A DNA stretch of 35,050 bases, taken from assembly GCA_009779135.1 (NCBI GenBank), contig WREW01000012.1:1-35050 (forward strand), in the 5' to 3' direction. Below the pieces are notes generated by a model, which did not search any database, had not been told where the DNA came from, and saw only the letters and a program-made list of their open reading frames with translations. Positions 14,704-21,423 of this stretch are shown here, piece after piece. The stretch is from Alphaproteobacteria bacterium. GTDB lineage: Bacteria > Pseudomonadota > Alphaproteobacteria > UBA9219. Every line of letters begins with the position of its first letter. The stretch's first letter is position 1. A program made the translations under genes and the position numbers.

Positions 14704-15024
14704 GTGGCCAAACCAGAGTGGGGAACAAAACGAATCTGTGCTCATTGCGGCATGCGTTATTATGATATGAAGAAAAATCCTCCCGTTTGCCCGGGATGCG
14801 GCACGGCCTTTGATGCCGAACAGCTTTCACGCTCGCGCCGTGGCCGCATCAGTGCCGAAGATAAAGCGGCTCTCAAGCAGCGTCCTTTGCCCGAGGATCT
14901 GGATGATATTCCCCCCTTGCCCGATGATGATGCCGACAACCTGATTGAGGATGTCGATGAGCTTGGCGAGACCGATGTCGAAGATGTGGTTGATGTCGAA
15001 ACGGACGAAATGGATCGCAGTTAA
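14704..15024 (+). CDS. TIGR02300 family protein (zinc ribbon with acidic tail)
   Basis: Product of 106 residues. The N-terminus is a zinc ribbon, KRICAHCGMRYYDMKKNPPV followed by CPGC, giving two CxxC pairs. The YYDMKKNPPVCP stretch corresponds to the FYDLN signature of the family. The C-terminal half is strongly acidic (DDIPPLPDDDADNLIEDVDE...). The function of the family is unknown; it is found almost only in alphaproteobacteria, often next to aroA as here. GTG 14704 is chosen because AGGAGGAGA precedes it and MAKPEWGTKR is the usual N-terminus. The stop TAA overlaps the stop of the convergent glycosyltransferase gene in TTAA (15021-15024). Confidence 0.88.
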   Translation: MAKPEWGTKRICAHCGMRYYDMKKNPPVCPGCGTAFDAEQLSRSRRGRISAEDKAALKQRPLPEDLDDIPPLPDDDADNLIEDVDELGETDVEDVVDVETDEMDRS

Positions 15025-16259
15025 GCGGCTCTTTCCGAGTCTTTTGAAGAAGGTTTAAGCGCTTTGATCTCTTCCTCCGTGGCAAACGGGGAAGGTTTTG
15101 CGGACTGGATGCATTTCTTGAAAATATCGGCATAGACTTTGGCGATGGGCGGCCAGTCCCATGATAAAAGCGCATGCTCGGCCAGAAGATCCTGCGGCGT
15201 GCTTAAAGGCAGCGTTAAGGGAAAGGCTTTGAGCTTTTCAAGCCAAGCTTTAGCCGTGCGCGCGGGGTCTTTGGGCCAGACGGGGGCTGTGTGCAGATGA
15301 AGCCGCGCCATGGCGTTGCCCTGTGCTGTTTCGGGGCTGCATAAAACGGGAAGGCCGCAAGCCATGGCTTCTTGGACGACAAGGGGAAAGCCTTCGCCGT
15401 AGCTTGGCATAATCAGAAGATCCGCCGCCTGATAGAGTTCGGCCAGAGCGGGGCCTTTGCGGTTTCTTAAAACATGGACGTTTGGCAAAAACCATTTTTC
15501 CGGCACGTTTGCCCCTGAACCGGCCAGCCAAAAGCGCCAAGTGGGGAGCAACTGGGCCAGATTTTTGATGACGTCAAGGCCTTTTTTCTCCGTAAAACGT
15601 CCGACAAAAAGCAGCACGGGCTGGCTTGGTTTAAGTGCAAACTGCTCGCGCAAAAAGCGGCGGTTTTCGGCCATGGCCGGATGGAAAATGCGGATGTCCA
15701 CGCCATTGGGAATCACTTTAATAGGCCGCGTGAAGGGGATTTTTTCATAATAAAAATCGGCCACGCGGTCGCTGATAAAAATAACTTCGTCCGCCGAAGG
15801 CAAAAGACGGCTTGTGAAAAACCCGTCGGCCCAGCGCATCAAAAGGCGTTTAAGCGGGTTGCGGTAGGGAATGGGCGCGATGTGCTGGTTGACGATCACG
15901 GGCTTGCCCATGCGTTTTGCGGCGCGCAGCGCGACCATATTCCCCGGGTAGAGAAGATCGTGCAGCCAGACGATATCGGCTTTGGCGATAGCGTCTTTCA
16001 TGCGGCGAAAGCTGCGCGGACTCCAAAGCGGCAGAGGCAGACCAAAATATTTTTCGCTTATGTTCCAGCTGCGCATGGGCATCATGGCTTGGCCTTCAAT
16101 CACAGGCGGCGGATCGCTGTCGCTTGCGATCCAGACAAAATGAAGCGCAGGATCGCGGCTGATTTCCCTTATCATACGCTCCGTCACGCGCTCGATCCCG
16201 CCGCCATGGTCGGCGTAGTAATGCGTGATAACCGCAATCTCGATGGGCGAGGCGCTCAT
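15021..16259 (-). CDS. Glycosyltransferase, GT4 family (GT-B fold)
   Basis: Product of 412 residues. It should transfer a sugar from a nucleotide-sugar donor; the acceptor is unknown. N-terminal acceptor domain: HYYADHGGGIERVTE (13-27), the glycine-rich loop of GT4 enzymes. C-terminal donor domain: VLLFVGRFTEKKGLDV (215-230), then PSYGEGFPLVVQEAMACG with the EX7E pair Glu289/Glu297. No membrane segment is present, so it is cytoplasmic or peripheral. The start overlaps the upstream oxidoreductase stop by ATGA. It is the last gene of a four-gene operon with an oxidoreductase, an AAA+ ATPase and an aconitase-like protein. A glycan or glycolipid product is plausible but not shown. Confidence 0.88.
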   Translation of the reverse strand: MSASPIEIAVITHYYADHGGGIERVTERMIREISRDPALHFVWIASDSDPPPVIEGQAMMPMRSWNISEKYFGLPLPLWSPRSFRRMKDAIAKADIVWLHDLLYPGNMVALRAAKRMGKPVIVNQHIAPIPYRNPLKRLLMRWADGFFTSRLLPSADEVIFISDRVADFYYEKIPFTRPIKVIPNGVDIRIFHPAMAENRRFLREQFALKPSQPVLLFVGRFTEKKGLDVIKNLAQLLPTWRFWLAGSGANVPEKWFLPNVHVLRNRKGPALAELYQAADLLIMPSYGEGFPLVVQEAMACGLPVLCSPETAQGNAMARLHLHTAPVWPKDPARTAKAWLEKLKAFPLTLPLSTPQDLLAEHALLSWDWPPIAKVYADIFKKCIQSAKPSPFATEEEIKALKPSSKDSERAA

Positions 16260-17308
16260 GCGTAAAGATTCTCCGTGATGGCTGCAACAGCTTCACTTTG
16301 TAGTTTATGCACCTTCAACGCCTGCGCAAGGCCTATCTTGTCGTCCTCTTGATTGTTCCGGATCGATTGCGCGAAACGGTTAACCACTTGATCCTGCCCG
16401 TAATCCAGAGATCCTTTTAAAAACAAAAAACCATTTGGAATATGTGCCATCAAATGCTGCGTTATGGCACAGGCCGAACTGCGTAAAATATGATAGGCTT
16501 TATGCTGCCTGTCATTGGGCAGAACCATATAAATATCGCGGAAGATGTCAATAATCGCGGTCGCCTTTGTGCCGGTGATGCGCACATGCCACTCGCTGAG
16601 CGTGCTGTCAAACTGGCAATCTATGGTAAAGGGCGTATCATTTTGGTCTTTGTAAAGCACATGCACAAGGCGCGGCGTGCGCGCATGCTGTGCTTTAAAG
16701 CCGTGCGCGCGGCACAGGGAAAGGCCTCCCTTTGCCAGCGCGTTCAGCATGTAAAAGAAATGGGGGCTTTCATCGTAAAAAAGGCCCAAGGGAAGCGTTT
16801 CATACCATGACGGCAGGCGTCTTTGCGGGTTGCCGAGCTGCGTGGCCGCCACGCGCGTGATCGGGCCGAGTCTATCCTGCGCCAGATCGCGCCAAAGCCT
16901 TTGCGCTGCGCGACTGAATTGGAAATTATGGACAACGGCCAGCTGTTTGCCGCTGTTTTGCGCGGCCAGACTCATCGCCTCGCTTTCCTGCGTTGTGAGA
17001 GCGAAGGGTTTTTCCGTTAAAACATGTTTGCCTTGCGCCAGCGCTTGACAGGCCAGCGCGGCGTGACTGCTCGGCGGGGTGGCCAGAGTCACGGCTTCAA
17101 CCTCATCCAGCCATGGCACATTTTGAAGATCGGGACTGCAGGCGGCGCACGGCAGGTTCCATTGCTGCGCAAAAGCGCGCGCGCGGCCTTCATGCTTGTC
17201 AATCACGCCCACGAGCTTGAAGTTCTTATCGCGCAAAAGCGATGGGTTGTGGCGGTTTTGTCCAACCCAGCCAAGTCCGACAATGGCGATTTGTATAGGC
17301 TTCATCAT
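16256..17308 (-). CDS. Gfo/Idh/MocA family NAD(P)-dependent oxidoreductase
   Basis: Product of 350 residues. The N-terminal Rossmann fold has IAIVGLGWVGQNRH (GxGxxG at 11-16), VIDKHEGRARAFA and ATPPSSHAALACQAL. The family signature TEKPFALT is at 98-105, with the lysine that usually takes part in catalysis. The C-terminal alpha/beta domain carries the substrate site and is variable. These enzymes oxidise or reduce sugars, inositols and nucleotide-sugars. Next to a GT4 glycosyltransferase, a role in making an unusual sugar is a reasonable inference. ATG 17308 (or the next codon, ATG 17305) overlaps the AAA+ gene stop, so translation is coupled. Confidence 0.87.
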   Translation of the reverse strand: MMKPIQIAIVGLGWVGQNRHNPSLLRDKNFKLVGVIDKHEGRARAFAQQWNLPCAACSPDLQNVPWLDEVEAVTLATPPSSHAALACQALAQGKHVLTEKPFALTTQESEAMSLAAQNSGKQLAVVHNFQFSRAAQRLWRDLAQDRLGPITRVAATQLGNPQRRLPSWYETLPLGLFYDESPHFFYMLNALAKGGLSLCRAHGFKAQHARTPRLVHVLYKDQNDTPFTIDCQFDSTLSEWHVRITGTKATAIIDIFRDIYMVLPNDRQHKAYHILRSSACAITQHLMAHIPNGFLFLKGSLDYGQDQVVNRFAQSIRNNQEDDKIGLAQALKVHKLQSEAVAAITENLYA

Positions 17309-18180
17309 AGGGCCAGATGGTTGATGCCGGCCTCGGCAGCAACGGACACCGCGATGGATTCATCATCCAGCTGGTCTTTGACGCCGCGCAAGGAGGCGTG
17401 GGCGCAGGCCTGATCCAGACAAAGGATGGATTTGTCGGGGTTGTTGCGGTTTTTGATGTAGCGGTCTGTTAAAAGGACAACCCGTTCAATCGCGCGATCC
17501 GAGATTTGGAAACCGTAATGTTTTTCAAAATTGGGGCGCATCAATTTGATGATGTCCATCGTCAAAGGCAGATCGGGAACCTGCAGCGTGATTTTCTGGA
17601 AGCGGCGGTCGATAGCCGGTTCGGCCTTGACATATTCGTCATATTCTTCGCGCGTGGTGGCGCCGATCACAAGAAGATCGCCCGTCGTAAGATAGGGTTT
17701 GAGAATATCCGCAAGGCCGCTGTAGCTTGACGCTTTGAAAGCCAGCATCAGCTGGTGAATCTCATCAATACAAAAGATAATGGGCGGATATTGGCCTGAG
17801 GCGTTGCGCTCGGCCACGCCTTTGACGATGGGAATCAGGCGTCCTTCAAGATCTGCGCGCGAGGCGGAACCTGCGCCGATCATGGACATTTCAAGCTCGA
17901 TCAATTTTGCGCCTTTTAAAATGTCGGGGACTTCGCCTTTGTTCAGCCTTTGCGCAAAGCCTATGAAAAGCGCTGTTTTGCCGACACCTGCAGGGCCCAG
18001 AATAAGGGCGTTTTTACGCAGGCGCTGCACAAGAATAAGCGTGAGTTTTTCCACTTCCTTGTCGCGTCCCGAAATGGGATCAAAGCGGCCCGCGCGATCC
18101 TGCACCGTGAAATCGCGCGTGTAGCGATCCATAAGTGTATTGAGTTCCTGATCTGAGATCACAAAAGAAGGTTTGGTCAT
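17305..18180 (-). CDS. Stand-alone AAA+ ATPase resembling the D1 module of ClpA/ClpB
   Basis: Product of 291 residues. Walker A LGPAGVGKTA (61-70), Walker B IIFCIDEIHQ (134-143), sensor 1 VIGATTREEY (171-180) and the arginine finger AIDRRF (189-194) match the first AAA+ module of Clp/Hsp100 proteins. The Clp N-domain, D2 module and ClpP-binding loop are absent. The pore-loop tyrosine of ClpA/B (GTKYRGEFEERL) is replaced: here the segment is GAGSASRADLEGRL (102-115), with Ser at the Tyr position. ATP hydrolysis looks possible, but threading of polypeptides does not look typical. AAAGGA precedes ATG 18180, which is 11 nt after the aconitase-like gene. The stop overlaps the oxidoreductase start by ATGA. 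Partner and substrate are unknown. Confidence 0.85.
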   Translation of the reverse strand: MTKPSFVISDQELNTLMDRYTRDFTVQDRAGRFDPISGRDKEVEKLTLILVQRLRKNALILGPAGVGKTALFIGFAQRLNKGEVPDILKGAKLIELEMSMIGAGSASRADLEGRLIPIVKGVAERNASGQYPPIIFCIDEIHQLMLAFKASSYSGLADILKPYLTTGDLLVIGATTREEYDEYVKAEPAIDRRFQKITLQVPDLPLTMDIIKLMRPNFEKHYGFQISDRAIERVVLLTDRYIKNRNNPDKSILCLDQACAHASLRGVKDQLDDESIAVSVAAEAGINHLAL

Positions 18181-18191
18181 TAAAAAATCCT

Positions 18192-20846
18192 TTATGTAAC
18201 ACGTTGCTTGACAAGATTCGCCAAAGACAGGGCAAAGAGCGAGCCTTGGCGCAAAAGCTCGACCTCTTCAAGTGTTTGCATGGGGCACATCACCATATAG
18301 CGCGAAATATCATCTTCGTTTTCCACCGTCAGCATGACATCGCTTGGCTGGCGATCGGGGACGGAAAGGGAAGAAAGAGAAAGTCGCGTTTTTACGCTCA
18401 GTTTAAGATCCGCCATTTTCACGCCTGTTTTAAAGGCAAGCGGCAAAACGCCCGCGCGCAGCAGCGCAAGCCGCGCGGACGCCGTGAAGCTTTGCGCCAG
18501 AACGGCTTTAACGCCCATAAGCGCGATGGATTTGGCCATCCATTCCTTGCCGTCGCCTTTGCCGAACTGCTTGCCTGCCACAAGGAAAAGCGGGGTGTTT
18601 TCGTTTTTATAGCGCTCGGCCACATCGAAAAGCGGCAAAATCATTTCCGAAGATTCATGATAAGTGCCTTTGCGTATGCTTTGCTCTGGCGGCACAAGAA
18701 GATTAATCAGCTGATCCGCACAGAAAGCACCGCGCACCATCACATCGTGATTGCCCGTGTACCAGCTGAAGCGGCTTTGTTCGTGCAGGCTGTGGCCTTG
18801 GGCCGTAAGATAGAAACCGGCTGCCTCCTGCGGCGCTATGGCGCCGTGCGCCGCTAAGCTTGAAGCGGGGATATCATCGCCGTAAAACGCCAGAATACGC
18901 CCTTTATGCGCCGCGATGGGCCATGTTTTTTGTTGCGCGCGGGCGCTGGCGTAAAAGGGAGGCTCTTTCAAAAAGGCAGATCGCGCGGGCCATGGATAAA
19001 GGGCTTCCTGTGGTGGCGTGATGGCTTTGAAGGCTTCGTTCCCTTCAAAAAGATTTACGCGGAGAATGCGGTGGGCGTTGGCGGGCGGGTAGTTTTGGAA
19101 AAGCTCCGACACCTCGCGCGGGGAGGGCCAGAGATCTTTAATCATGACGGGATTGCCCTGCGCATCGGTACCGATGGCTTGGGTCATGTCCACAAGAAAA
19201 TTGCCCGTCATTGCGTAAAGCACCACCAAGGGCGGCGCTGCGCGATAATGGGCCTGACATAAAGCAGAAGCGGAATCCAAAGAAAGATCCCCGTGCGAAG
19301 TGAGACGAACGGCGACAATGTTTTTCTGCGCCATATCTGTTGCGTTTTCTTTGGGCGCGGGCGGCCATGGTGGCGGCTCGGCGACATGGCGGAAGCCCAG
19401 AAACTCAAGATCCTGACGCAGGCCTGCGTTTTCCAGAAAACGCAGGGTGCTCGGGCTTTGGGGTCTGAAAAGGGCGCGCACCCACGGCTTGACTTTCAGC
19501 CCGTAAAGCTGCGCTTTGCGCGCGATAAGGCCCGCAAGAGCAAGCTCGGTCAAATGGTCGTAAAAGCCGCTGGGGCCGATTTCCGCCACCAAAATGTCAC
19601 CCGTGTGCAGCGTGTCGGCGCTTGAGGTTCTGTCAGAGGCTTTGACAAAGCGTTTGGCGAAAAGGGCTTTGGCTTCTTCAAGCAAGGTCAGACGGGAAAG
19701 AAGGTCGGGGCCGGCCAAAGCGGGACGCGCCTGTTCAAGCGGCAGGAAAAGAACGTCAGAGAAGGTCTTGATTTCTTTTTCTGTTGACGCTTCTTGTTCC
19801 TCCTCTTCACTGTGGGGCGGAGGCGGATCTTGCCACAGGCCTTGTGCTTTGGCGTAGCTTTCCACCAGCGCTGTATGCGCGACGCTGTGGCCTGTTTCTT
19901 TCATATGGTCGAGCGTTGCGTCATCAAACGGGAAATAGATGCCGTGCGCGCCGGCTTCTTCGGCCACGCCAGCCAAAACGGCGCGGTCGGGAACGCTGAG
20001 CGAATCAAGGCCTTCGCCAAAAAACTCAATAATTTTGCCTGTGCAGTTGATTTGACCCAGCAAAGAAGCCAGCAAAAACCCTATATCCGAGGCATGGACA
20101 TTTTTGCGCGGCCTTCCTGTGACGTGAACGCCCAGAACAGCCGGCAAGGTCAAAAGATAGGGATGCTCAAGCGCGACACTTTCCGCCGCCAGCGTGTCGT
20201 CTTTTAAAGTGAGGGTGCCAAGGGCGCTGGCGCTGAAAAAGCCTTTCAGCGGGCTGATAACAAGCTCAGGCGCTAAAAAGAGCAGGGGGCTGTCGGGGTC
20301 TTCAAGGATCTGGATGCTTGTCGTCAGATAGTCGGTGTTCACTTGGGTGCTTTTGCCGGCATAGGGCGGGATAAGCCGCAGGTTCTTCATTCTGCCTTGG
20401 GCCCATTTCAGGAAGACAAGGCGCTCCCGCCCCTCGGGGGTGGGGATGTTGTTGTCAATGATGATGTCGCTTGGGCAGGCGGGGTTGATAAGGCTCGGCT
20501 CAAAGCCTTCGCGCGCGGCGCTGGCGCGAAAGGCGGCCATGTCGGCCATCAAAGACAGGCCTGTTTCATCATCCAAAACCATACGCGAAGGCGTCAGGGT
20601 CAAGGTCGGCGGCGTGGTTTGCAATGTGTGGTAGGTGGCAAGGCTGCGTATATCCTCCTGCCCGACATGCTCGGTGTCTTCATGGCGCAGGAGGTTTTCC
20701 AGAAGAATGCGTATGCTGCGCGGCAAATGGCTAAGATCGCCCAGAGTTTCCTGCGTGGCCTCAAGGCTGAACCAAGCGTAGTTTTTTCCCGCTATGGTTA
20801 AGGTTTGCAGAGCGCCAAGGCTGTTGAGGCTTTGTGTGGGTTGCAT
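18192..20846 (-). CDS. Aconitase A-like protein without catalytic residues (probable pseudoenzyme)
   Basis: Product of 884 residues, the full length of AcnA, with all domains recognisable: ILLENLLRHED, IIEFFGEGLDSLSVPDRA (273-290), IGTDAQGNPVMIKDLWPS (558-575) and the swivel domain GNHDVMVRGAF...AERYKNENTPLFLVAGKQFG. The active site is erased. The cluster cysteine in SCTN is gone (AEIGPSGF, 421-428), as are both in GCTTCIGN (AEPPPWPPAPKEN, 489-501). DHSV reads DNNI (131-134), GTDSHTT reads LAPELVI (191-197), NRNFEGR is lost near 517, and GSSRDW reads GDGKEW (764-769). The frame is long, open and conserved elsewhere, so this is not a decaying pseudogene. An acidic insert (about 336-358) is present. 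ATG 20846 fits the AcnA N-terminus better than ATG 20906, which lacks a ribosome-binding site. It heads the four-gene operon. Confidence 0.87.
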   Translation of the reverse strand: MQPTQSLNSLGALQTLTIAGKNYAWFSLEATQETLGDLSHLPRSIRILLENLLRHEDTEHVGQEDIRSLATYHTLQTTPPTLTLTPSRMVLDDETGLSLMADMAAFRASAAREGFEPSLINPACPSDIIIDNNIPTPEGRERLVFLKWAQGRMKNLRLIPPYAGKSTQVNTDYLTTSIQILEDPDSPLLFLAPELVISPLKGFFSASALGTLTLKDDTLAAESVALEHPYLLTLPAVLGVHVTGRPRKNVHASDIGFLLASLLGQINCTGKIIEFFGEGLDSLSVPDRAVLAGVAEEAGAHGIYFPFDDATLDHMKETGHSVAHTALVESYAKAQGLWQDPPPPHSEEEEQEASTEKEIKTFSDVLFLPLEQARPALAGPDLLSRLTLLEEAKALFAKRFVKASDRTSSADTLHTGDILVAEIGPSGFYDHLTELALAGLIARKAQLYGLKVKPWVRALFRPQSPSTLRFLENAGLRQDLEFLGFRHVAEPPPWPPAPKENATDMAQKNIVAVRLTSHGDLSLDSASALCQAHYRAAPPLVVLYAMTGNFLVDMTQAIGTDAQGNPVMIKDLWPSPREVSELFQNYPPANAHRILRVNLFEGNEAFKAITPPQEALYPWPARSAFLKEPPFYASARAQQKTWPIAAHKGRILAFYGDDIPASSLAAHGAIAPQEAAGFYLTAQGHSLHEQSRFSWYTGNHDVMVRGAFCADQLINLLVPPEQSIRKGTYHESSEMILPLFDVAERYKNENTPLFLVAGKQFGKGDGKEWMAKSIALMGVKAVLAQSFTASARLALLRAGVLPLAFKTGVKMADLKLSVKTRLSLSSLSVPDRQPSDVMLTVENEDDISRYMVMCPMQTLEEVELLRQGSLFALSLANLVKQRVT

Positions 20847-20952: not shown

Positions 20953-21423
20953 ATGATTCGGCAACTTTTTTCCAACTCTATGATGGTTTTACGCTTTTTT
21001 TGCTTTTTGTGTGTTTTGTTTTTGGCTCTGGGCGCGGGCACGGGTGCGCACGCCGCGCTTTTGTTTTGCAATCATACGCCTGTGATCCTTGAAGCGGCTC
21101 TGGGCTACCGGCAGCAGGAGCAATGGATGTCCGAGGGTTGGTGGCAGCTGCAACCCGGCCAGTGCGCGCGCGTTTTGAACAAGAGTTTGGAGCAGCATTA
21201 TTACTTTTACTACGCCCGCGCTTTGAGCGCTGCGCCCAAGATGGCAAACGCCCCGCAGCTTTGGGAAGGGCCTTATCCTTTTTGCACGAACGGCAAGGCG
21301 TTTAAGATTCAAGGCGACAATGATTGCAAGCGCCGTGGTTTTGAGAAAAAAGGTTTTGCGGGGTTTGAAATTGACGGCAAACAAAAGAGCTATACGGTGA
21401 CGTTTGAAATGCCTAAGGCGTAA
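20953..21423 (+). CDS. DUF1036 family secreted protein
   Basis: Product of 156 residues. The signal peptide has a hydrophobic core at about 12-27 (VLRFFCFLCVLFLAL) and a likely cleavage after AHA (34). The mature part has the DUF1036 pattern: FCNHTP near the start, ALGYRQQEQWMSEGWWQLQPGQC, YYFYYARAL, PYPFCTNGKAFKIQGDNDC and RRGFEKKGF. Four spaced cysteines probably form disulfides in the periplasm. The function of the family is unknown; it is common in alphaproteobacteria. The start is ATG 20953 with only a weak GCGG upstream; ATG 20980 would shorten the basic end of the signal peptide. The miaB start follows after three bases, so the two should be co-transcribed. Confidence 0.85.
   Translation: MIRQLFSNSMMVLRFFCFLCVLFLALGAGTGAHAALLFCNHTPVILEAALGYRQQEQWMSEGWWQLQPGQCARVLNKSLEQHYYFYYARALSAAPKMANAPQLWEGPYPFCTNGKAFKIQGDNDCKRRGFEKKGFAGFEIDGKQKSYTVTFEMPKA

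Follow-up and report, generated by a model that had tools for sequence, protein, structure and literature searches.

A full-length AcnA orthologue with selectively replaced catalytic residues at the ancestral acnA locus of an alphaproteobacterium without a detectable oxidative TCA branch

Aconitases are textbook moonlighting proteins whose second job is not easily told apart from the enzymatic one. In bacteria, apo-aconitases bind RNA (PMC7527780, PMC4150767), and vertebrate IRP2 is cluster-free and solely RNA-binding (PMC10340119, PMC4112806). In mitochondrial aconitase (mAcn, whose numbering is used below) S642 is the general base and C358, C421 and C424 are the ligands of the cluster (PMC8184944). 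The equivalents of all four are absent from the AcnA orthologue described here, which we refer to as the pseudo-aconitase. Its gene lies in a window of 35,050 nucleotides, the whole stretch of DNA that was analyzed, from a genome (G000) rated 100% complete; all genomes compared are drafts. Evolution appears to have separated the two jobs in this lineage, with pathway and chemistry gone and the protein retained. A search of the available literature for a published description of such an aconitase found none, and a scan of named genomes with the pseudo-aconitase returned matches that were all working AcnAs at 31-33% identity.

The 884-codon open frame noted in the original prediction proved genuine. 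The mechanical open reading frame runs 60 bases further upstream (to 20906), and the start at 20846 is backed by homologues. A consensus promoter scan upstream of the gene gave no match. Pfam matches were obtained for Aconitase (4e-43) and Aconitase_C (2e-14). The NCBIfam model NF006757 covers residues 7-881 at 518 bits and TIGR01341 covers residues 22-878 at 467 bits, neither reaching its cut-off (686 and 945, respectively). The protein is an end-to-end homologue of AcnA, as had been proposed, and of IRP1, with domains 1-4, and the motifs FGEGLDSLS and IGTDAQGNPV as well as the swivel domain are all found. Nearest among solved sequences are IRP2 and IRP1, followed more weakly by mitochondrial aconitase. 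An AlphaFold2 model (pLDDT 87, pTM 0.88) matched, over its full length, solved IRP1 (2b3x, TM 0.83) and the AcnA chain of 9a4j (TM 0.87). Because the input alignment consisted mostly of working AcnAs, which biases the model toward that fold, the model speaks for fold and not for conformation; a run on the seven clade members described below gave pLDDT 59 and was set aside. With good confidence, the AcnA/IRP1 fold is predicted to be retained. Annotation that relies on Pfam would label this gene an aconitase and ascribe to the organism a TCA step beyond its means.

Table 1. Positions in the window of the pseudo-aconitase gene, its former active-site elements and the neighboring genes.
Feature	Position	Strand	Basis or remark
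Pseudo-aconitase gene (acnA orthologue), 884 aa	18192..20846	-	Pfam/NCBIfam matches; orthologues at same locus in relatives
DHS motif site (mAcn D100-H101), now D131-N-N	20448..20456	-	alignment
Cluster-side His site (mAcn H147), now T167	20346..20348	-	alignment
DSH motif site (mAcn D165-S166-H167), now L-K-G	20241..20249	-	alignment
First cluster cysteine site (mAcn C358), now S426	19569..19571	-	alignment
CxxC cluster loop site (mAcn C421, C424), shortened, Pro-rich	19368..19391	-	alignment; placement within gap uncertain
NRNFEGR substrate arginine block site, now GDLSLDS	19272..19292	-	alignment
TDHISP loop site, domain 4, now ASSLAA; Ala 661 clade-wide	18849..18866	-	alignment
Substrate Arg site (mAcn R580), now T697; Thr in 7/7 members	18756..18758	-	alignment
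SSR site (mAcn S642 general base, S643, R644), now D-G-K	18546..18554	-	alignment
DUF1036 gene, divergent, marks ancestral acnA locus	20953..21423	+	
Stand-alone AAA+ ATPase, downstream; Walker A and B kept	17305..18180	-	like first AAA domain of ClpB/TssH
GFO/IDH/MocA oxidoreductase, next downstream of AAA+ ATPase	16256..17308	-	
Family 4 glycosyltransferase, next downstream of GFO/IDH/MocA gene	15021..16259	-	

At the 16 key catalytic positions the working AcnAs compared have DHHDSHCCCNRRRSSR and the pseudo-aconitase has DNTLKGS--GDSTDGK, the first Asp (D131) being the sole survivor. It was likewise the only residue retained when the positions D100/H101, D165/H167, R447/R452/R580/R644 and S642 were tested. 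Where the three [4Fe-4S] cysteines would be expected, the protein has S426 and a deleted CxxC loop; read directly from the sequence, its five remaining cysteines include no CxxC. The original prediction had the whole active site erased. This holds for the cysteines, the Asp/His pairs, the substrate arginines and the general-base Ser, all of which are replaced, and goes too far for Asp131, Gln168 and Asn170, which persist in the window copy. Given the established mechanism and the missing residues, aconitase activity is predicted to be lost.

The loss is selective. Alignment with 37 working AcnAs yielded 307 nearly invariant columns, and the pseudo-aconitase conserves 4 of the 37 active-site columns versus 134 of the 270 others (Fisher p = 5e-6). 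The same selective loss was observed in G002, G013, G004 and G005 (p 6e-7 to 2e-4). A general decay of Fe-S dehydratases does not account for the change, since LeuC of the same genome has its cysteines, active-site motifs and substrate block intact. Nor does fast evolution alone erase the site: eleven further genomes in the class and six in the order have fast-evolving AcnAs, and all key residues covered by the fragments are kept in these.

Six relatives carry orthologues with the same active-site erasure: G001-G005, which belong to the same genus, and G013, from a neighboring genus in the same family, whose protein has one Cys left of the cluster cysteines. The seven erased AcnAs form one clade (100/100) with G012 as sister (99/95), followed by G010; the inner order of the clade is unsure owing to long branches, as the tool warned. 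Identity within the clade is 35-40%, and end branches reach 2.6. This rapid divergence, together with the uselessness of an aconitase once the TCA cycle is gone, would fit a relic in slow decay that is still unbroken. We consider that reading very improbable. None of the seven genomes has an internal stop or frameshift in the gene, despite saturated synonymous change, so the random frameshifts in relatives that would have indicated decay did not appear. Contig ends alone account for the split genes of G001 and G003; an apparent internal TAG in the G003 gene is actually its normal stop, the gene being divided across two contig ends. For the one pair in which dN/dS was usable, the remaining clade pairs being saturated (G004/G005, 82% identical), dN/dS was 0.175 (bootstrap 0.137-0.219), an interval far below 1, and windows of 100 codons showed that constraint persists in all domains. 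Three pairs of working AcnAs gave 0.12-0.18. Plain decay is unlikely because the pair is as constrained as working AcnAs. With catalytic residues lost, the fold retained and purifying selection detected in the one usable pair, the proposal that the pseudo-aconitase is a pseudoenzyme retained under selection is supported.

The pathway around the enzyme could not be found either. In G000 there was no match for citrate synthase (PF00285), no 2-oxoglutarate dehydrogenase (OGDH) E1 was detected, and a search for Icd-type isocitrate dehydrogenase (PF00180) matched only LeuB, assigned by score (about 440 bits, where the Icd type gives about 220) and because it lies beside leuC. SdhA was not detected in G000, where the match is NadB, encoded within the window. 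The citrate synthase and Icd that would accompany an active AcnA are thus both lacking from this genome. Across the clade and G012, citrate synthase, Icd-type isocitrate dehydrogenase and OGDH E1 were not found, and SdhA/FrdA over the cut-off was not found clade-wide; for the other clade members these absences hold within the completeness of their draft genomes. G012 keeps SdhA. A separate intact acnA had been expected in the window genome and is absent: the other PF00330 match, considered as a second aconitase, is LeuC, which leaves the pseudo-aconitase as the sole aconitase of G000. Two further relatives differ in their aconitase content. G006 (99% complete; L050:11787-13405) has kept citrate synthase, and any aconitase was undetected. 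The match in G008, first taken as another eroded AcnA, is an AcnB with its cysteines, although AcnA is the aconitase otherwise used by that family. In the region L048:6695-14660 the AcnB gene follows a 492-aa isocitrate-dehydrogenase-like frame and has a VirB4-like conjugation ATPase frame in its vicinity, both assigned by eye; it is perhaps on a mobile element.

The order of a divergent DUF1036 gene, acnA and an AAA+ ATPase gene is common to the clade and to relatives with working enzymes, and in the clade and G012 it is extended by the GFO/IDH and glycosyltransferase genes. Because this order matches that of the relatives, the window gene is the original acnA and not a duplicate. Removal of acnA is possible at this locus, since G006 has a clean deletion in which DUF1036 and the AAA gene face each other. 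The AAA+ ATPase itself is without an N domain and without a second AAA domain. Its same-strand adjacency to acnA in 7/7 clade genomes, at a distance of 11 bases in the window, raises the possibility that the pseudo-aconitase is a dedicated partner of the ATPase, acting as its adaptor, substrate or regulator. We judge such a dedicated partnership improbable. The adjacency is older than the loss of activity, being present also in G009, G010, G012, G029 and G031, and in other members the two genes lie about 70 to 400 bases apart, which opposes obligatory coupling. The ATPase occurs in 30 of 33 genomes of the order (52-80% identity), with or without acnA, including the acnA-less G006 and G007; its persistence in G006 means that it does not need the pseudo-aconitase. 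Elsewhere in the class, only 4 of about 140 genomes sampled carried it at the threshold applied.

An intermediate is present in the sister lineage. AcnA of G012 (L042:10050-12722) keeps the three cysteines and the arginines, whereas its SSR has become TPR, with the general-base Ser gone; the His of the DHIS loop is Gln, and the Thr-Asn that follows the first cysteine is Ala-Ser. Judged by these residues, it is apparently an early stage of the same erosion. In G012 the TCA enzymes are gone and the Ser is replaced while the cysteines are intact, which suggests that the pathway was lost first, then the general base and pocket, then the cluster ligands. The series of G010 (working), G012 (intermediate) and the G000 clade (all gone) provides both this order of steps and natural separation-of-function mutants.

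Pocket positions of the old site mostly vary among species of the G000 clade, and the old pocket therefore seems released from its former constraint. A few new residues are common to the clade and absent from working AcnAs, among them H314, R374, H431, E434, A661, T697 and R797. The old cleft might have been remodeled, without a cluster, for a different ligand, making the protein a new enzyme or small-molecule sensor. Consistent with this, H431 and E434 lie just past the first cysteine position, T697 replaces the substrate Arg, A661 and R797 are shared, and clade members have Gln at position 767, the R644 equivalent (Lys in G000). A selected pocket would not be expected to vary by species at most of its positions, and the shared new residues are not clearly concentrated there; we regard a new ligand site as unlikely.

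A permanently apo, IRP-like regulator, whose open cleft would grip mRNA stem-loops, has precedents in the RNA-binding bacterial apo-aconitases and in IRP2, and the best solved matches are IRP2 and IRP1, which reflects family membership only. The equivalents of IRP1 R269, T438, N439, N535, R728, S778 and R780 are, however, replaced and variable in the clade. The clade proteins are net acidic, and the model, biased as it is by its alignment, is closer to closed IRP1 (TM 0.83) than to RNA-bound IRP1 (TM 0.67). Several of these seven positions contact RNA in IRP1, and their loss and variability disfavor, in its known form, the IRP-like RNA binding that the original prediction had raised, leaving little probability for it. 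The list of IRP1 RNA contacts comes in part from a docking study (PMC10050399).

We favor, as the fairly probable explanation, that a vertically inherited acnA became a pseudoenzyme retained after TCA loss for a non-catalytic binding role. The comparisons show that the oxidative TCA branch disappeared in an ancestor while the aconitase remained at its locus, and that the ligands of the cluster, the pocket for the substrate and the general base were replaced, with the fold and reading frame preserved. The cluster-free protein may now work as a binding protein that scaffolds or regulates either another protein or a nucleic acid, through surfaces outside the old pocket. A binding function of the structural scaffold or its outer surfaces is suggested because the pocket is variable while 120 of the 143 columns identical in five clade members are ordinary scaffold residues. 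The binding role was probably a secondary one already present in working AcnA. With low confidence, the AAA+ ATPase neighbor is the most accessible candidate partner. Several observations count against this explanation: the fast evolution of the clade proteins also fits weak constraint, a new ligand site would equally explain the shared H431, E434, T697 and R797, dN/dS comes from one pair and the absences from draft genomes, and loss of acnA leaves the AAA gene in place. More tentatively, and with the balance slightly against it, the cluster-free aconitase of this TCA-less lineage may have a new role, essential or at least selected, that involves neither the pocket nor IRP-type RNA binding. 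Such a role, if true, would reveal that AcnA has a citrate-independent job, hidden in other bacteria.

With bacterial AcnA (TIGR01341 / NF006757) the pseudo-aconitase shares the full-length domain order, the fold and the locus of the relatives' working acnA, but it is without cluster ligands and catalytic and substrate residues and scores far under the family cut-offs. LeuC/LeuD and aconitase X belong to the same superfamily and, unlike it, are active cluster-bearing dehydratases, as the intact LeuC of G000 illustrates. A non-catalytic role would be held in common with the moonlighting apo-aconitases M. tuberculosis AcnA, B. subtilis CitB and E. coli AcnB; these switch between enzyme and RNA binder, whereas the enzyme state of the pseudo-aconitase is, judging from its residues, permanently gone. 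Vertebrate IRP2 is an aconitase fold with a non-catalytic job and no Fe-S cluster, as the pseudo-aconitase would be. IRP2 binds RNA, while the pseudo-aconitase has neither the IRP1-type RNA-holding positions nor a functional link to iron. Pseudoenzymes with an aconitase fold are already known, notably IRP2; the G000 clade and its relatives form an unusually clear evolutionary series.
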